Positions 34,150-42,929 of a stretch of 64,000 nucleotides of DNA are shown here, piece by piece. Source of the DNA: Balneolaceae bacterium (GTDB lineage Bacteria > Bacteroidota > Rhodothermia > Balneolales > Balneolaceae); the NCBI GenBank assembly GCA_017795005.1, contig CP051242.1, positions 2,968,119 through 3,032,118 on the forward strand, given 5' to 3'. The notes beneath the pieces are model-generated. The model ran no database searches. It saw nothing but the letters and a program-made list of their open reading frames with translations, and had not been told where the DNA came from. The number at the start of each line of letters is the position of its first letter. The first letter of the stretch is position 1. The position numbers and the translations under genes were made by a program.

Positions 34150-34254
34150 ACAACAATGCATTTTAATCACATTCACTCTCCTTCGTGGATAACTTCGGCA
34201 TTTTGTGGGAAAGTAATTTTGATAATACTCTATTAATATCTCATCTTAATTACG

Positions 34255-34449
34255 TGCTAATGGTGTTCAGCATAGAAAGTTTTTGTGTTGGATGAAAAGG
34301 GAATCCGGTGGCCTGTATTCGCAGGGAATCCGGAACTGTACCCGCAACTGTAAGCTGTTTTAGTTTTTTCACTCAAGCCACTGTCTCAGCCCCAAACAAG
34401 ACGGGAAGGCGAAAAAAATTCAGCAGTAAGTCAGGAGACCTGCCTTAGC
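34255..34449 (+). promoter_or_regulatory. Cobalamin riboswitch controlling nrdBA
   Basis: The conserved core elements appear in order: AAAAGGGAATCCGGTG (34296-34310 region), GGGAATCCGGAACTGTACCC, GCAACTGTAAGC, GCCACTG, GGGAAGGCG, and the B12 box AAGTCAGGAGACCTGCC at 34428-34444. CTAATGG near 34257 can pair with CCTTAG at the 3' end as the closing stem. Cobalamin binding normally lowers expression of the downstream gene, here nrdB, 118 bases on. Confidence 0.93.
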
Positions 34450-34566
34450 CGAGTAAACGAGGTTTCGGGATTAAAACCAGGTTGAAGCGAATATGTTCTT
34501 ATAGGATTATTGTATGGATGATCATACTCGCTCCTGTCCCTCCTCATCATTTTTAAGAAACAGGCT

Positions 34567-35550
34567 ATGAAACAATTAATTGGCAAAACCTCGGTGCGGG
34601 ATAACATCGAGCTTAGTGAAACACCTTCCTATCCCATTTTCAGAGAATTGTATGAGAAACAAAAAAAGGCCATCTGGTTTCCGGAAGAACTAAATATTCA
34701 GCAGGACGCCCTCGATTACCATGCCCTTTCCCCCGATGAAAAAGATCTGTTTGACACAGCCGTTGGATACTTCTGCTCTTCAGAATTACTAGTACAAAAT
34801 GTGCTGGTTAATTCCTTCTTCCCAATGCTGAGCGACCCTCACGCTAAAATGAGTTTCAGCACTCAGTTGTTTATGGAGAACATCCACAGTGACTTTTTTG
34901 AGATTGTGCTCCAGTCTTTTAACATGGACCGGGAAAAAATGTATAAGGTTGCTTTCGACGACCCCATCCTTAAAAAGAAGATGGACTTGATTGTGGAAGA
35001 AATCGACAATATCAGCTATGGTAAGATTGATCCGGATACTTTGCAGGGCAGAAAGGATGTTTTACGTGCTATTCTGATCAACAACATCATCATGGAAGGT
35101 ATCTTCTTCTATTCCTCCTTTGCGCACTTCTTTGCACTCAAAGACATGGGAAAAATGAGAAATGTGGTTTCCGGTGTGGAACTCATCTTAATTGACGAAT
35201 CATTGCACCTCCAAAATGGAATTGAAGCCATTCTGATCATGCTGGAAGAAACCCCGGAAATTGTAGATGATGCTCAGTTTGTGAGAGAAATCAGAGAAGT
35301 GATTCTGAAAGGCACTTACCTCGAAATCGAATATGTTCAACATAAATTCGACAACAAAACCATTCTGGGGATTTCCAGTTCAGAACTGGAGCGCTACCTC
35401 AAATACATCACCGACCGAAGACTGGAAGAACTTGGATTTACTCCTGAGTTCAACATTACTGAAAATCCGTTGAGATTCCTTCAGAAAGAAGATGTGAAAA
35501 AGCTCATCAACTTCTTTGAGGTTTCATCTACAGAATACACGAATTATTAA
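34567..35550 (+). CDS. nrdB: Ribonucleotide reductase small subunit, class Ic-like (no radical tyrosine)
   Basis: The metal-cofactor subunit of an aerobic ribonucleotide reductase. The six ligands can be placed: Glu73 (SSELLV), Glu104 and His107 (MENIHSDFF), Glu177 (IIMEGIFF), Glu211 and His214 (IDESLH). The residue four after His107, where class Ia/Ib enzymes have the radical tyrosine, is Phe111, and the first ligand is Glu instead of Asp. Both match the Chlamydia-type class Ic enzyme with a Mn/Fe cofactor. The length of 327 residues is normal. The gene follows a B12 riboswitch and overlaps no other true start; nrdA follows after 16 bases. Confidence 0.93.
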   Translation: MKQLIGKTSVRDNIELSETPSYPIFRELYEKQKKAIWFPEELNIQQDALDYHALSPDEKDLFDTAVGYFCSSELLVQNVLVNSFFPMLSDPHAKMSFSTQLFMENIHSDFFEIVLQSFNMDREKMYKVAFDDPILKKKMDLIVEEIDNISYGKIDPDTLQGRKDVLRAILINNIIMEGIFFYSSFAHFFALKDMGKMRNVVSGVELILIDESLHLQNGIEAILIMLEETPEIVDDAQFVREIREVILKGTYLEIEYVQHKFDNKTILGISSSELERYLKYITDRRLEELGFTPEFNITENPLRFLQKEDVKKLINFFEVSSTEYTNY

Positions 35551-35552
35551 TA

Positions 35553-35558
35553 AAGGAG
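35553..35558 (+). promoter_or_regulatory. Ribosome binding site that fixes the nrdA start
   Basis: AAGGAG lies 8 bases before the ATG at 35567. The frame is open further upstream to 35516 inside nrdB, but this site and the conserved start MQRTVIKRDG favour 35567. Confidence 0.75.
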
Positions 35559-35566
35559 ATATCAAC

Positions 35567-38038
35567 ATGCAGCGCACAGTAATTAAACGAGACGGCTCAC
35601 AGGAAAAATTTGAAACCCAGAAAATCATTAATGCGATCTTTGAGATTTTAGTTGGCCTCGAAATCGAGGACAATTACGAGATTGTATTTCGCATTATGAA
35701 GGAACTGGATCTGAAAGTTCCGGAGCTTGTTAAAACGGAGGAATTGGATCAGCTTCTGCTGAAAGCCATCGAGCAGCTCATTCCCCAACACCCGATGTTC
35801 GACACATTGGCCACTCGTCAGCTTCTCAAGCAAATCAACAAAAAAATTGACCGACAACTTGTAAGTTTCACCGAATACCTGGATCACGCCATTAATGAGA
35901 AACTGGTAAAAGAAGAGCTTCTGGAATTTGATTTGGACATCCTTCAATCTGCCATGGATTACGGTCGGGATGAACTGTTCGGCTACTTCGGTCTCACTAC
36001 GCTCCGCGATAGATATTTGATGAAAGACCGTTCCCAAAATATCATTGAGAAACCGCAATGGTTTTTTATGCGGGTAGCAATGGGTATCGGCAATACCAAT
36101 GAAGAAGTGGTGAAAGTGTACAACAAACTCTCGCAGTTAGAATACATGCACTCTACACCAACCTTGTTCAATTCCGGCACGCCGATGTCTCAGTATTCTT
36201 CCTGCTATGTGAGTGTAGTTGATGACTCACTTGATTCCATCATGGCAAAAGCTACCGAAACGGCCTTCCTTGCAAAACATGCCGGGGGAGTCGGCACCGA
36301 TGTCAGCCGGGTTCGTGCTACCGGTTCCCTCATCAATTCCTTGAATGCGAAGTCTTCCGGGGTAATCCCTTTTATAAAAGTATTTGATACGTTGGTAAAC
36401 TCGATTCAACAAGGTGGCCGACGAAGAAGCTCTCAGGTGATCTCCATCCAGCCCTGGCACCTCGACATTGAGGCTTTTCTGGATTTAAAAGAAACCACCG
36501 GAAATGCGTATTTCAGAACACCTTCTCTGAATACCAAACTCTGGACGCCGGACGAGATTATGCGTCGTATCGAGCACAAAGAAGATGTGTATCTGTTCGA
36601 TCCGGGTGAATGCCCTGAACTGGTGGAAGCCATCGGTGCTGATTTCACTGAAAAGTATAATCAGCGCATTAAAGAAGCTGAGGCTGGAAAAATTCAACAA
36701 TTCAAAAAAATTGAAGGCGAAACTTTCTACAAGAAATACCTCTTCAAGCTGGCAAAAACTGGTCATCCGTGGCTGATCTTTAAAGACGAGCATAATCGCA
36801 AGAATCCCTGCCCGGATTACAGTGTAATCAACAGCTCGAATTTGTGTACAGAGATTTCCATCCCCAACCGGCCCGATTCCACCGCTGTGTGTACGCTGGC
36901 TTCGCTGAACCTCTCTAAACATGTAAAATCTGACGGCTCGGATTTCGATTGGGACAAAATCCAGGACACCTTGGAAACGATGGTGCTGGCACTGGATAAC
37001 ATTCTCGATAAAAATTTCTATCCCTCAGAAGAAGCCAAACGCAATACCATGGATTTGCGTCCACTGGGGATTGGTTTAATGGGATTCGCAGAAGCATTAG
37101 TCGATCTTAAAATTTCATATGATTCCGAAGAGGCAGTGATAGCGGCCCGTAAGCTGGGACAATTCATGCGAAAAACCTGCTATGCGAAGTCTGAAGAACT
37201 GGCACAGGAACGCGGAGCCTTCAACCATTACAAAGAAGCCAAGTACGACTACTCTCCACGTCGAAACGCTGTACTTCTTGCTATCGCTCCGACTGCGACT
37301 ATTTCTATTATTTCCGGAACTACCTCTTCTATCGACAGCTACTTCAGTAACCTGTATTCAAGGGATACGCTTTCCGGGAAACATATCGTCATCAACAGCC
37401 AATTGATCTTTGATCTTGAAGAAAAAGGGCTTTGGGATGACCGTATGGCTACCCTTATCAAACAACACAGCGGCTCAGTGCAGCTTATTGATGAATTTGA
37501 AGGAAAGATCGACAAAGAGATTTATAAAACGGCCTATGAAATCCATCCAAACCGACAGGTGGATATTGCTGCTGCCTTCCAGGAGTCGATTGACCAGGCA
37601 GTATCCAAGTCATTGTACATCGACGAACAGTTACGTGGAGACATGCCCGAAATTTATCTTTATGCCTGGAAGAAAAAGCTCAAATCTACCTACTACTGCT
37701 TCATCGACAAAGTGGTAAAAGGTGAAAAATATACTTCTAAAGTAAATAAACGAGGCAGCCGCTCCGGATTTGGCGGAGGTTCTGAGAAAGAAGAAACAAG
37801 CAAAGTTTCGGTTGACGAATCAGAAACTACAGCGGAAAGCATTTCTTCCACTCCAACCTCAGTCCGCCGGGGATTCGGTCAGCCAGCAGCAACGGAAACA
37901 GCTGAATCACAGGAAGCACTTATTCTCGAAGCCCGCGCAAAATTTGGTGACGAACGGGTAGAAGAAGTTTTGGCTGCTGGTGAAGATGCCTGTCCGACTG
38001 ATCCGCTGCTGAGAAAAATCTGCCCGAGTTGTGAATAG
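35567..38038 (+). CDS. nrdA: Ribonucleoside-diphosphate reductase large subunit with ATP cone
   Basis: It reduces ribonucleoside diphosphates to deoxy forms with NrdB. An ATP-cone (about 1-90, VIKRDGSQEKFETQKI) gives allosteric activity control. Active-site residues are Cys213 (SSCYVS) paired with Cys442 (VCTLASLNLS), the thiyl cysteine Cys427 with Asn425 and Glu429 (NSSNLCTEI), and the tyrosines near DPLLRKICPSCE and elsewhere complete the route. The C-terminal CPSC pair, after a low-complexity Ser/Thr/Glu linker (about 725-790), should shuttle electrons from thioredoxin. It forms an operon with nrdB. Base composition looks a little richer in GC than neighbouring genes. Confidence 0.95.
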   Translation: MQRTVIKRDGSQEKFETQKIINAIFEILVGLEIEDNYEIVFRIMKELDLKVPELVKTEELDQLLLKAIEQLIPQHPMFDTLATRQLLKQINKKIDRQLVSFTEYLDHAINEKLVKEELLEFDLDILQSAMDYGRDELFGYFGLTTLRDRYLMKDRSQNIIEKPQWFFMRVAMGIGNTNEEVVKVYNKLSQLEYMHSTPTLFNSGTPMSQYSSCYVSVVDDSLDSIMAKATETAFLAKHAGGVGTDVSRVRATGSLINSLNAKSSGVIPFIKVFDTLVNSIQQGGRRRSSQVISIQPWHLDIEAFLDLKETTGNAYFRTPSLNTKLWTPDEIMRRIEHKEDVYLFDPGECPELVEAIGADFTEKYNQRIKEAEAGKIQQFKKIEGETFYKKYLFKLAKTGHPWLIFKDEHNRKNPCPDYSVINSSNLCTEISIPNRPDSTAVCTLASLNLSKHVKSDGSDFDWDKIQDTLETMVLALDNILDKNFYPSEEAKRNTMDLRPLGIGLMGFAEALVDLKISYDSEEAVIAARKLGQFMRKTCYAKSEELAQERGAFNHYKEAKYDYSPRRNAVLLAIAPTATISIISGTTSSIDSYFSNLYSRDTLSGKHIVINSQLIFDLEEKGLWDDRMATLIKQHSGSVQLIDEFEGKIDKEIYKTAYEIHPNRQVDIAAAFQESIDQAVSKSLYIDEQLRGDMPEIYLYAWKKKLKSTYYCFIDKVVKGEKYTSKVNKRGSRSGFGGGSEKEETSKVSVDESETTAESISSTPTSVRRGFGQPAATETAESQEALILEARAKFGDERVEEVLAAGEDACPTDPLLRKICPSCE

Positions 38039-38116
38039 TATTTCCAGATTGACATTTTGCGAATCGTAAATTATCGGTTTCATTTAACCAATTATGTATT
38101 TAGCTTAAAATGTAAC

Positions 38117-38316
38117 CAATGATGGTCTCATTGAAACGGTACTTGTACCAACTTTGAGTTAAAAGGGAATTCCCGTGAAAATCGGGAGCTGTTCCCGCAA
38201 CTGTAATTCTGTCCGTGTTTATGCGGAGTCGCAGCCTCATCTTTGCCACTGTTCTCCTGAGTATTTGGAGGGCGGGAAGGCGCTGCAGCAGAAAAGCCAG
38301 GAGACCTGCCATCATT
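38117..38316 (+). promoter_or_regulatory. Cobalamin riboswitch controlling btuB
   Basis: A perfect 8-bp closing stem (AATGATGG at 38117-38124 with CCATCATT at 38309-38316) encloses the conserved parts: AAAAGGGAATTCCCGTG, ATCGGGAGCTGTTCCCGC, AACTGTAAT, GCCACTG, GCGGGAAGGCG and the B12 box AAGCCAGGAGACCTGCC (38294-38310). The btuB start is 49 bases downstream with AAAGGAG between, so ligand binding probably hides the start site or stops transcription. Confidence 0.94.
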
Positions 38317-38364
38317 TAACCATCGCATTTCCTTCGGGTAAAAGGAGCTGTTGATATCGATGCT

Positions 38365-40284
38365 ATGCGTCTTCTTTTATTTATAACCGTATTTATCAGC
38401 TTTAGCAGTGCTTTTGCTCAGACTCAACCTGATACTGTAATTCTCAAAGAAATTACGGTTAAGGCGACCCGCATTCATCAACCTCTACTTAAACAACCCA
38501 TCTCTGTTACCACTATCAATTCGATAAAAATCGACGCACTATCAGGAGGTACTATTTCGGAAGTGCTTAATGCTCACGCCCCGGTGTATGTTCGAACAAA
38601 CGGCCCGGGTGGACTTAGTACGCTTTCTCAGCGAGGGTATTCTTCATCACAGACCCAGATATTGTGGAATGGCTTTCAACTCAATCACTCCATGCTGGGG
38701 TTAACGGATCTTTCCTTGATACCGGCATTTGCAGTTGGTCAAATTACCGTTGCGTCCGGAAATGGAAATACCTCTTTTGGTGAAAAAGGAGGTGGAACTG
38801 TTGCCCTTCAGACGAAAGAGCCTGAAAATGAACTGGGAGTCTCTCAAACCATTGGATCTTTTAACAAGTCTATTACTGAAACCTATGCGGGAGTCCATCT
38901 TGGAAAATGGAGTTTCAGCTTAGTTACTGGTTTAGAAAAGTCGGACAATAATTTTGGTTATTCAACCCGTGAATTCAATAACGAAGCAGGTGGATTTATC
39001 ACCGTAAGGAAACAACGTTCCAATAACGAAGTGTCTTCCAAAACAGGAATCCTTTCAATTGGCTGGAAAGAACACCAGAAAAATTTTATTTCTACTTTTT
39101 GGCTGTATGACGCCTCTAATAACATTCCGGGTGGGATTTCAAGTCCATCTCCCCAGGCTAGTCAGGAAGATTCATATTTCCGATGGATGAGCCGTTTTAC
39201 TACAACAACTTTTGGGCAGAAACTAACTTCAAAACTATATGTTAACAGACAGAAATTGGATTTTTTCAATCCTGCCAGTAATATTGATAGTCGTAGTACC
39301 AGCAACTCGGTTATTGGTGATGTTGAACTCTTAAGCGAACTCCACCAAACGCTGGATTTAGTCTCTTCTCTACAAATCGGACATTCCTATGTTAACGCCT
39401 CTGACTACTCAGGAAAAGCTGATCGGTCACAGTTTTCACTTCAAACTCATCCACATTGGCAGCCTGTTGAACGGGTAAATCTGTACGGGGGACTTCGTTT
39501 TGATTACTATTCTGATTTTAAAGAGGCATACAGCGCTAGCTTTGGAACAAATATCGAAATTCTTACTGATCATTTATTTCTAAAAGGGCAAATAAGTAGA
39601 AATTTCGTTGCCCCAACTTTTAATGATCTGTACTGGCCGGGGCTCGGTAATCCTGATTTGAATCCCGAAACCAACATAAAGTATGAAACCGGTTTATTGC
39701 TAGATCAAATGTTCTCCGGATTCGCCCATTCTACTGAACTCACCTTGTATGATGGCATTGTTGAAGAAGGCATTCGCTGGCTTCCGATTGGCGGAAGTGA
39801 TTTCCGACCTGTAAACCTGGAAAGTGCTCGCCTTTTCGGGTTTGAAATCAAAGAAAATCTACAATTCTGGTCCAGAGATTTTCATCTTGATCTGCAAACG
39901 ACACTCCTTCACACTAAAGCGACACTAACAGAACCCCGCTTCGAAGGTGACCGCGCAGAAGATAAACAACTAAGATATACACCAGAATGGCAGCTAAAAG
40001 CTAGTGCATTTCTAAAGTGGAAATCTCTGGTTTCAGTATTTAGTTACAACTTTACAGAAGAAAGATTCAGCTCGGCTGATCATCAAAGTCCGTTCGACCC
40101 ATTACCGTCCTATGAGGAGGCAACATGGAGTACTTCTATCAAAATTAAAAAGGGCAACTTCGGGATTAGCCCTCAATTCACTGTTCAAAACCTGTTTGAT
40201 GAAGACTATGTCGTAATTCTCGATTACCCGATGCCCGGAAGAAATTATCAACTCAAATTAACGATCAACTATAAACTCAATTAA
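38365..40284 (+). CDS. btuB: TonB-dependent vitamin B12 receptor, BtuB-like
   Basis: The signal peptide (cut after SSAFAQ) is followed by a TonB-box-like DTVILKEITVKATR. The plug domain (about 45-150) has ISEVLNAHAPVYVRTNGPG, LSTLSQRGYSSSQTQILWNG and the VASGNGNTSFGEKGGGTVAL motif. About 480 residues of barrel strands end with LFDEDYVVILDYPMPGRNYQLKL, the usual TonB-receptor finish. With 639 residues it is the size of BtuB, and the B12 riboswitch right before it supports cobalamin or a related corrinoid as ligand. The secreted propeller gene follows after seven bases. Confidence 0.88.
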   Translation: MRLLLFITVFISFSSAFAQTQPDTVILKEITVKATRIHQPLLKQPISVTTINSIKIDALSGGTISEVLNAHAPVYVRTNGPGGLSTLSQRGYSSSQTQILWNGFQLNHSMLGLTDLSLIPAFAVGQITVASGNGNTSFGEKGGGTVALQTKEPENELGVSQTIGSFNKSITETYAGVHLGKWSFSLVTGLEKSDNNFGYSTREFNNEAGGFITVRKQRSNNEVSSKTGILSIGWKEHQKNFISTFWLYDASNNIPGGISSPSPQASQEDSYFRWMSRFTTTTFGQKLTSKLYVNRQKLDFFNPASNIDSRSTSNSVIGDVELLSELHQTLDLVSSLQIGHSYVNASDYSGKADRSQFSLQTHPHWQPVERVNLYGGLRFDYYSDFKEAYSASFGTNIEILTDHLFLKGQISRNFVAPTFNDLYWPGLGNPDLNPETNIKYETGLLLDQMFSGFAHSTELTLYDGIVEEGIRWLPIGGSDFRPVNLESARLFGFEIKENLQFWSRDFHLDLQTTLLHTKATLTEPRFEGDRAEDKQLRYTPEWQLKASAFLKWKSLVSVFSYNFTEERFSSADHQSPFDPLPSYEEATWSTSIKIKKGNFGISPQFTVQNLFDEDYVVILDYPMPGRNYQLKLTINYKLN

Positions 40285-40291
40285 ATACACT

Positions 40292-41638
40292 ATGAAAAAA
40301 ATCAGATACTACCTCTTAATTGCCGGGCTTTTTGCCTCAGCAAATCTTTTTGCGCAAAACAAAGAACTCGTAAACGTAGTAGTAGGAAACGAAGGAAATT
40401 TTTTGGCTTCGAATGCTACCATAACCAATTATTTATTGGAAACTACCACCGCCACAAACGGAGTTTTTCTGTCTGCAAATGGTGTAAGCATTGGGGATGT
40501 AGTACAAAGCCTAGCATGGATTGATGGTAAAATCTTTGCTGTGGTTAATAACTCACAAAAAATTGTGGTTGTAAATCCTCTCGATTTTACCCAAACAGGA
40601 CAGATCACTTTTGGAGAAGGAGCAAGTCCCCGGGAAATTGTTCAAGTAACAGATTCAAAAGCCTATGTTACGGACTTATATGGTTCAGCTGTTCATTCAG
40701 TAAATCTGAATGATCTTTCAGTAACTACTGATACAATTTCGGTAGGAATTAATCCAGATAGAATTATTGAACATAATGGATATGCTTATGTAGGGAATAA
40801 TGGTTTTGGCAGTGACAGTACTATTTTTAAAGTTGATGTATCAACCAATGCCGTGGTAGATACATTTTATGTAAGCAGGGGACCCGCGGGTATGGTTGTA
40901 GATTCACAAGATAACCTTTGGGTTGTTTGTACAGGTTATGCTGGTGATTACGATACTGAATGGAATTTAATACCGGGAACCGCGCGAAATGGTGGTATTC
41001 ATGGGATTAATCTTCAAAATGGAATTGAAATTGCATTTGAAGAGTTAGCATCTGCTGATTCTGATATTGCATTGGATGAACAGAACGGAGCGTTATATGT
41101 AAACAGTGGTGGAGTTCGGGTATTTAATCTGGCAAATAATGAAATGGCTGCTGATACTTTAATTCCTGGCTTTTTCTATGCCATGGGCTACGAATCGGTA
41201 GGCGGATCAATTTATCTTGCCAATGCAAAAGATTTTTCCTCTACAGGAGAGATTCTTATGTACAGTAATTCAGGTGAGGAAAAAGGCAGCTTTGATGCAG
41301 GTATTATTCCGGGAAGTTTTCTTTTTGTTTACGATGATATGATTAGTACTTCCAATGAGTCAGAAGAAAAAATCCAGTTATTTGCACTTGCGCAGAATTA
41401 TCCAAATCCATTTAACCCAACTACCAATATTGAGTTTTCTCTTCAGCAACCGGGTAATATTATACTTCAGGTATACAGTTCAAACGGACAAAAAGTAGCC
41501 GAACTGGCTAACGGTTACTATACTACTGGTTCACATTCTGTCACATTCGATGCTTCTAAATATGCATCCGGTATATATATTTATAGAATAGTAACCGAAC
41601 AAGGATCAATTTCAAGAAAAATGATGCTTATCAAATAA
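40292..41638 (+). CDS. Secreted beta-propeller with T9SS sorting domain, candidate B12-capturing partner of BtuB
   Basis: A signal peptide (cut near LFAQ) precedes about 330 residues of YVTN-type blades: GKIFAVVNNSQKIVVVNPLDF, SKAYVTDLYGSAVHSVNLND, GYAYVGNNGFGSD and NLWVVCTGYAGDYD. The C-terminal 85 residues are a T9SS type A sorting domain (LAQNYPNPFNPTTNIEF, then SGIYIYRIVTEQG). It starts seven bases after btuB, under the same B12 riboswitch. In Bacteroides a seven-bladed lipoprotein, BtuG, sits on BtuB and captures B12; this protein has the same fold type and gene position but a T9SS tail in place of the lipid. B12 binding is inferred, not shown. Confidence 0.8.
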   Translation: MKKIRYYLLIAGLFASANLFAQNKELVNVVVGNEGNFLASNATITNYLLETTTATNGVFLSANGVSIGDVVQSLAWIDGKIFAVVNNSQKIVVVNPLDFTQTGQITFGEGASPREIVQVTDSKAYVTDLYGSAVHSVNLNDLSVTTDTISVGINPDRIIEHNGYAYVGNNGFGSDSTIFKVDVSTNAVVDTFYVSRGPAGMVVDSQDNLWVVCTGYAGDYDTEWNLIPGTARNGGIHGINLQNGIEIAFEELASADSDIALDEQNGALYVNSGGVRVFNLANNEMAADTLIPGFFYAMGYESVGGSIYLANAKDFSSTGEILMYSNSGEEKGSFDAGIIPGSFLFVYDDMISTSNESEEKIQLFALAQNYPNPFNPTTNIEFSLQQPGNIILQVYSSNGQKVAELANGYYTTGSHSVTFDASKYASGIYIYRIVTEQGSISRKMMLIK

Positions 41639-41732: not shown

Positions 41733-42929
41733 TCAATCAATAGAAAAGACAACTTTAAACTCAGAACCTATTCCCTCTTTTGACGTTGTTTCCAAGTTCC
41801 CATCAAGTTCTTTAATGTGATGTTGAACCAGACTTAATCCCAATCCATAACCACCTTCACCGTTCGTTCCCTTAGTTGAAGTAACTTTATTTTCAATTAT
41901 TTCAGATACTTTACTTTCACTCATTCCAACACCACTATCTTTTACTGTTATCTTTAACGATTTATTCTTGAAAGTATCCTTTTGTGAGTCAGAATTTAGT
42001 ATTTCAAAATGTACATCAACACTTTTTTTAGGCTCTGTAAATTTAATAGCATTTGAAATCAGGTTTCCAACAATTTGAAGTATTTTACCATCATCAATGG
42101 AATAACTGTTAGAGTCTCCAGAGTGACTAATATTAAGTGAGACTCCTTTTTTAAGAGATAAGGGTAAATATAGCCGCTTTATTTTCTCAACTAAAGCTTT
42201 AGTTGAAATTGTGTCATCTTCTATTTCTTCTTCCTCAAGCTGATTAGATAAAACATTTTCTGAATAGCTTAACATCTCCTTTCCACTTTTTTTAAGTAAA
42301 GTGAGGTATTTTTTTATCTCCTCACTATTCCCATCGTATTCCATTTGGATTAACTCTCCTAATCCAATTAAACCATTTATCATCCCTCTTAAATCATGAG
42401 CTATCTCTCTTTTAGCTGTTTTTTGATCTTTAAGAGCTTTCTTCATTTTATTCTTTACTCGTATACTTTCTAATCGTGATACAATGTCATCTGCTAGGAT
42501 ATTGATAAATTCCTTTTCTGTATCTGTAAGTGTTAATTCTCTAAGGCTGATAACACAAAACGATCCGACACTAAATCCTTCTTTTGAAATTAATGGAACT
42601 CCGTAATAATATTTAGCACCGGCTGCTTTAATACTTTCGATATTCATAAATCTATCGTCTTTGCTGAGATCAAAGACTTCCATAGGTTTTTCCCTCTCAA
42701 CAGTATAGGAACAAATCGTTTCGTCTCTTTGAACGATTAAATCTTTGGTTCCAATCTGAGAAACGGACCATTGGAAGGAGCTATCTATAAAATTAAGTTG
42801 AGAAATCTCGGTCCCTGCCAGCTTTGCAGCCAATTTATTTAAATTAATGAACTCGCTCTCTAATGACTCATAGTCCAGATTAAAATCCGATAGGTTAACC
42901 AGACGCTTAAATTCCTTGTCTTTATTCAA
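41733..42929 (-). CDS. Soluble GAF-domain sensor histidine kinase
   Basis: Residues about 20-155 form a GAF domain (ICSYTVEREKPMEVFDL, YYYGVPLISKEGFSVGSFCV). A dimerisation segment follows with the phosphorylated His178 in REIAHDLRGMINGL; here the usual Pro after HDLR is Met. The catalytic ATPase has its N box (IVGNLISNAIKFTEP) and G boxes (VKDSGVGMSES, GGYGLGLSLVQHHI). There is no membrane helix, so it senses a cytoplasmic signal. No response regulator is adjacent, making this an orphan kinase. Confidence 0.9.
   Translation of the reverse strand: MNKDKEFKRLVNLSDFNLDYESLESEFINLNKLAAKLAGTEISQLNFIDSSFQWSVSQIGTKDLIVQRDETICSYTVEREKPMEVFDLSKDDRFMNIESIKAAGAKYYYGVPLISKEGFSVGSFCVISLRELTLTDTEKEFINILADDIVSRLESIRVKNKMKKALKDQKTAKREIAHDLRGMINGLIGLGELIQMEYDGNSEEIKKYLTLLKKSGKEMLSYSENVLSNQLEEEEIEDDTISTKALVEKIKRLYLPLSLKKGVSLNISHSGDSNSYSIDDGKILQIVGNLISNAIKFTEPKKSVDVHFEILNSDSQKDTFKNKSLKITVKDSGVGMSESKVSEIIENKVTSTKGTNGEGGYGLGLSLVQHHIKELDGNLETTSKEGIGSEFKVVFSID

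Follow-up and report, generated by a model that had tools for sequence, protein, structure and literature searches.

The window, a stretch of 64,000 nucleotides from a Balneolaceae bacterium whose genome is a single 3.75-Mb contig, holds two cobalamin riboswitches, the second of which heads btuB and a gene for a 448-residue propeller protein (Table 1). The original prediction had placed these two genes 7 bases apart behind one cobalamin riboswitch, and both the spacing and the riboswitch were borne out. No second homologous copy of the propeller gene, here termed btuG, was found in the host genome. Downstream of btuG lies a convergent gene for a GAF-histidine kinase (41733–42929, minus strand), which has a 53% identical homologue at the G040 site (a congener discussed below) and gives no sign of membership in the B12 operon.

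Table 1. Features of the B12 uptake operon, in positions of the window
Feature	Position	Strand	Basis
Cobalamin riboswitch RF00174, head of operon	38106–38327	+	cmscan 88.5 bits, E = 1.6e-20
btuB, TonB-dependent transporter for corrinoids, BtuG-partnering type as in Bacteroides BtuB2/BtuB3	38365–40284	+	PDB matches
BtuB residues 472–484, WLPIGGSDFRPVN, equivalent of EL8	39778–39816	+	alignment; EL8 role from PMC10404256
btuG, T9SS form, 448 residues	40292–41638	+	sequence, AF2 model, Foldseek
Signal peptide, lipid-free (SPI-type), residues 1–21, no lipobox cysteine	40292–40354	+	cleavage site by eye
Predicted seven-bladed BtuG propeller, residues 26–347	40367–41332	+	PDB phmmer 5e-29 over residues 30–344; AF2 model, Foldseek
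NEGNFLASNAT, residues 33–43, counterpart of the BtuG2 B12-holding loop Asn54–Thr64	40388–40420	+	loop role from PMC10404256
Linker of ~22 residues, propeller to sorting domain	41333–41398	+	21–25 residues in 41/41 tailed homologues
T9SS type A C-terminal sorting domain, residues 370–445	41399–41626	+	PF18962 1.6e-10, TIGR04183 5.2e-12

The best PDB sequence matches of the window propeller are BtuG structures, aligned over its full length. The AlphaFold2 model (pLDDT 92.6) contains about 28 strands, forming seven blades and a separate C-terminal β-domain, and the top 16 Foldseek matches are all BtuG, with TM-scores (normalised to the BtuG chain) of 0.81–0.89 over the propeller and 0.46 for the two-domain BtuG1 chain 8blw. 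An archaeal propeller (0.64) and Escherichia coli YncE (0.66) follow. The blades were originally described as YVTN-type; seven are present in the model, but the YVTN repeat TIGR02276 reaches only 17.3 bits in this protein, below its cut-off. The proposed correspondence to BtuG was supported by the structural comparison that had been suggested as a check; judged from sequence and model, the window propeller is a BtuG homologue by descent and not merely a functional counterpart.

Residues were mapped using chain 8bmx_D, whose numbering is that of PMC10404256, so that the residues named in that paper could be located in the window protein. In BtuG2, B12 is gripped by loop Asn54–Thr64 together with loop β5A (PMC10404256), and nine of the 11 residues of the former are identical in the window protein. 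Among five aromatic positions around the corrinoid, three remain aromatic (Trp194 to Phe172, Tyr316 to Tyr296 and Tyr335 to Phe315) and one is lost (Trp272 to Ala255), while Tyr239 depends on the alignment, corresponding to Tyr220 in one and to Ala217 in another. The expected match of top-face residues therefore holds for the loop and for three aromatics, but not for Trp272, and is uncertain for Tyr239. This comparison is confined to the loop and the five aromatics, without the hydrogen-bonding residues of BtuG2 being taken one by one. The window propeller domain is strongly acidic (net −25), and the binding face of BtuG2 is likewise negatively charged.

The adjacent BtuB comprises a Plug domain and a TonB barrel. 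Its best NCBIfam match is TIGR01779 (TonB-B12, 3.3e-25), but the 88.7 bits lie under the cut-off of 599.7, and the identity of the protein rests instead on its PDB matches to BtuB2 (1.1e-47) and BtuB3 (3e-45), compared with only 1.5e-6 for E. coli BtuB. The role of loop EL8 in BtuB has been described (PMC10404256). An EL8-like segment, W-x-P...F-x-P-x-N, is kept in the window BtuB, where Phe480 aligns with Tyr538 of BtuB3 and a Phe of BtuB2. The segment is found in the BtuBs that accompany both anchor types of BtuG described below, with the aromatic itself retained in only part of them.

The signal peptide of the window BtuG, MKKIRYYLLIAGLFASANLFA with cleavage before Q, has no lipobox cysteine, and the published picture of BtuG as a surface lipoprotein, with lipobox cysteine and lipoprotein export signal (PMC6143338), does not apply: a cysteine is missing from the signal region and a T9SS tail is present. 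This tail scores above the cut-offs of both PF18962 (41.5 bits, cut-off 27) and TIGR04183 (45.6 bits, cut-off 23), which upholds the signal peptide and sorting tail originally reported. The host genome encodes the PorU sortase (1058.7 bits, cut-off 420) and the SprA translocon (1477.1 bits, cut-off 200), on which the evidence for T9SS machinery rests, and dozens of its proteins carry sorting tails. The earlier description of the protein as secreted is right in so far as T9SS export is predicted, but 'exported by T9SS, probably surface-tethered' is the better wording, with export, cleavage and tethering all inferred.

BtuG was found in 33 of 92 Balneolaceae genomes, as 14 tailed forms (one only partial) and 19 lipoproteins; a 34th match was weak and was rejected as not BtuG. 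A further 80 loci were fetched across the class and phylum, with long frames included on purpose, so that proportions outside Balneolaceae are not prevalences. Among 112 Bacteroidota BtuG loci, a T9SS tail is combined with a lipid-free signal peptide in 41, and the other 71 carry a lipobox without a tail; no locus has both or neither. The NCBI-curated model TIGR04183 finds 34 matches among the 74 sequences of alignment A2, equal to the number of its tailed rows. A scan of genome contigs with the full-length protein returned mostly unrelated T9SS tails. With 41 tailed homologues in many genera, the window gene can be neither a peculiarity of a single assembly nor an accidental fusion.

The further btuB–propeller pairs behind B12 riboswitches that the original prediction anticipated do exist, the riboswitch–btuB–btuG order recurring in ~100 loci. 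BtuB lies directly upstream of BtuG in 107 of 112 loci, and one of the five exceptions ends at a contig edge. A riboswitch motif lies ahead of all 37 tailed loci not cut by a contig end, and the full Rfam cobalamin riboswitch was recovered in 11 of 11 tailed loci tested (73–113 bits) and in nine of 10 lipoprotein loci tested, at a distance in one (L235). Both anchors are held at short range: the propeller and the sorting motif are 21–25 residues apart in every tailed form, and the lipobox cysteine is 11–23 residues from the propeller (with one of 32) in the 70 measurable lipoproteins. The two forms are equally similar to BtuG2 (26.3% identity for tailed, 26.6% for lipoprotein), both are strongly acidic, and a BtuG fold is likewise predicted for the most remote tailed clade (L245), with TM-scores up to 0.83.

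Neighbours with T9SS tails adjoin at least eight of the lipoprotein-type loci, so lack of a T9SS does not by itself explain the lipid route; the idea that this route occurs only where the system is missing is unsupported. Some lipoprotein BtuGs have a longer open frame (L212, L213, L214, L222, L224 and L226), and in L212 inspection by eye suggests that a PKD-like stretch of ~80 residues, similar to the PKD domains in BtuH2, separates the lipobox from the propeller. At one tailed locus (L114, 6422–8750) btuB appears to be split into two frames of 555 and 204 residues beside an intact T9SS-type btuG, by a frameshift or an assembly error, and at another (L193, 5242–5466) two Acido-Lenti-1 RNA matches of 45–47 bits lie on opposite strands just past the 3' end of btuG.

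Femtomolar corrinoid binding and complex formation with BtuB, two further criteria for a BtuG, can be ascribed to the window protein only by analogy. Our preferred reading, to which we assign a probability of roughly 0.82, is that the window BtuG is the B12-catching lid of BtuB, T9SS export and, probably, a C-terminal tether taking the place of the N-terminal lipid. It draws on the observed homology, operon, riboswitch, sorting tail and core T9SS genes, on the predicted fold, on co-conservation with a BtuG-type BtuB and on the finding that lipobox and tail never occur together; that the protein binds B12, works as a lid, is exported and is tethered is inference. Under B12 shortage the riboswitch would allow joint production of btuB and btuG. 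BtuG would then be carried across the outer membrane by the Sec pathway followed by the T9SS, and once PorU had removed the sorting domain the propeller would either stay attached through its C-terminal linker or be released. These steps of export, cleavage and C-terminal attachment are extrapolated from general knowledge of T9SS. The acidic face of BtuG would bind B12 while the propeller caps BtuB like a lid, and BtuB would use its EL8-like loop to eject the vitamin into the barrel for TonB-driven import; corrinoid capture, lid closure and EL8 ejection are inferred by analogy with the work on Bacteroides (PMC6143338, PMC10404256). Against the lid stand the loss of Trp272, the uncertainty over Tyr239, the absence of binding or localisation data and the failure to find a riboswitch-linked BtuFCD.

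The position of the tether is a further point against it. In the Bacteroides 'pedal-bin' complexes BtuB2G2 and BtuB3G3, the N-terminal lipid linker of BtuG is held by EL2 and EL11 of BtuB, and that of BtuG2 may act as a hinge (PMC10404256). Any tether on the T9SS form would sit at the opposite end, and a lid held by its C-terminus would require a hinge of another kind. It may be hypothesised, without coordinates in support, that the termini of the propeller lie close together, in which case the anchor could swap ends with the hinge unmoved.

The main rival to the lid is a freely released scavenger, in which the cleaved propeller would enter the medium, pick up B12 and go back to BtuB, much as a siderophore made of protein might. 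This would be compatible with the lipid-free signal peptide and the cleavable tail, as T9SS cargo can be soluble, but a type A tail usually leads to surface attachment. Vesicle-borne B12-binding proteins of B. thetaiotaomicron have been proposed to act in a siderophore-like manner (PMC12751083). However, strict 1:1 pairing with BtuB and the tight linker of 21–25 residues suit the lid better, and release seems to us unlikely, if still possible.

Quick phylogenetic trees bear on how often the anchor of this presumed lid has changed. The BtuG tree needs five changes, at least three of them on well supported branches, and the tree of adjacent BtuBs needs six, at least four on well supported branches. 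Balneolaceae and two other families of Balneolales contain tailed clades, as do several families of Rhodothermia and f45, a family of another class, and the tailed form is placed in at least four spots on the tree. The switch number is approximate and no direction is inferred, as the trees are quick and contain long branches. It is hardly credible that the tailed proteins are one ancient, vertically inherited subfamily without repeated anchor swaps: all complete tailed propellers within Balneolaceae do form one clade, but a single tailed clade overall is rejected by the AU test (p = 6e-49), changes are required on both trees and two families (f1 and f45) contain both anchor forms. T9SS in place of lipid delivery was the original inference for this lineage; a tail without a lipobox agrees with it, export itself being inferred, but its restriction to one lineage does not stand. 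On the evidence of these quick sequence trees, the T9SS form arose or was exchanged several times.

The coupling of BtuG to a particular type of BtuB is seen at the window locus itself. In two congeners (G039 and G040), the syntenic site between phosphoglucomutase and dprA also carries a riboswitch, the single cobalamin riboswitch of the genome, and a TonB receptor for B12, but the cassette is a different one: its BtuB is of the E. coli lineage (3e-42 to E. coli BtuB for G039, with no match to Bacteroides BtuBs), and BtuG is absent. BtuB type therefore changes together with the presence of BtuG, and B12 cassettes seem to be exchanged at this site. The alternative cassettes occupy L277 (5892–10066) and L278 (5372–7312), the former also encoding a BtuF-like protein and a Dph6-like ATP pyrophosphatase. 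It is most improbable that the window protein is merely a generic YncE/YVTN propeller of the cell surface that lies beside btuB by chance and binds no corrinoid: propellers are common T9SS and surface modules, and a YVTN-type HMM matches 70 of 74 family members with E-values of at most 0.001, but the family profile prefers BtuG2 (2e-60) to E. coli YncE (9e-10) by 50 orders of magnitude, gene order is kept as described above and BtuB type varies with BtuG at one site within one genus; this reading was rejected on the sequence and fold rankings.

The gene content of the host is consistent with a B12 requirement that has to be satisfied by import, since its genome encodes the B12-dependent class II ribonucleotide reductase NrdJ (elsewhere than the window nrdBA), CbiE of de novo corrin synthesis was not found in it, and it has two cobalamin riboswitches in total, both inside the window. 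The other riboswitch (107.7 bits) heads nrdB-nrdA, encoding a class I ribonucleotide reductase (34244–38038), apparently a B12-free back-up to NrdJ that is switched on at B12 scarcity; in the congeners NrdJ is present and nrdAB is missing at the corresponding site. The inner-membrane step is unresolved, as no riboswitch-linked BtuFCD was found in the host genome and neither of its two FecCD permeases, one BtuC-like and the other, in our reading, beside a heme-type ABC set, has a riboswitch upstream. A set of two tandem lipoproteins resembling ABC substrate-binding proteins, a BtuC-like permease and an ATPase, without a riboswitch link in the host genome (L280, 495–5122), is a candidate route for B12 across the inner membrane.

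Compared with BtuG2 and BtuG3 of B. thetaiotaomicron (BT1954 and BT2095), the window protein has the same predicted propeller, Asn54–Thr64 loop, btuB operon, riboswitch, BtuB type and acidity; it differs in replacing lipobox and lipid anchor by a lipid-free signal and a T9SS type A domain, at ~28% identity. BtuK1 of B. thetaiotaomicron (9s6c) is also a B12-binding propeller from a Btu operon, but it is a lipoprotein and clearly more distant in fold (TM 0.71–0.74, against 0.81–0.89 for BtuG). The window BtuB, for its part, matches those of the pedal-bin complexes first and has the EL8-like segment in common with them (PMC10404256). In a 2018 survey of 313 gut genomes BtuG was confined to Bacteroidetes, and almost all of its homologues were interpreted as lipoproteins of the cell surface (PMC6143338). 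The BtuG, BtuH, BtuJ and BtuK entries of B. thetaiotaomicron that were consulted are lipoproteins or are shown with lipidation signals. The window protein shares its type of signal peptide and sorting domain, and core T9SS genes in the genome, with other type A cargo, but its partner is a TonB-dependent vitamin transporter and it is not an enzyme or adhesin; we know of no T9SS cargo with such a partner. No description of a T9SS BtuG was found in the openly licensed literature, where the sole paper containing both terms concerns the BAM complex; subscription papers were outside our scope. Within this limit the original statement that no such variant was known holds, and although BtuG itself is known, a T9SS-tailed BtuG without a lipobox is apparently undescribed.

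Our results point to a second, unrelated export and anchoring route for BtuG in many Balneolota/Rhodothermia-type genomes, swapped several times, which separates the B12 lid from its anchor. Whether TonB-dependent transporters can in general carry T9SS-delivered lids tethered to LPS by the C-terminus, with lipid and T9SS anchors interchangeable and repeatedly swapped around a BtuB–BtuG capture mechanism that is itself conserved, and with the N-terminal lipid hinge inessential, is a matter on which we find ourselves evenly divided. The swapped anchors amount to a natural experiment on which elements of the pedal-bin mechanism are essential; they would also link the T9SS to vitamin uptake and indicate that a capture system already known operates in further lineages.
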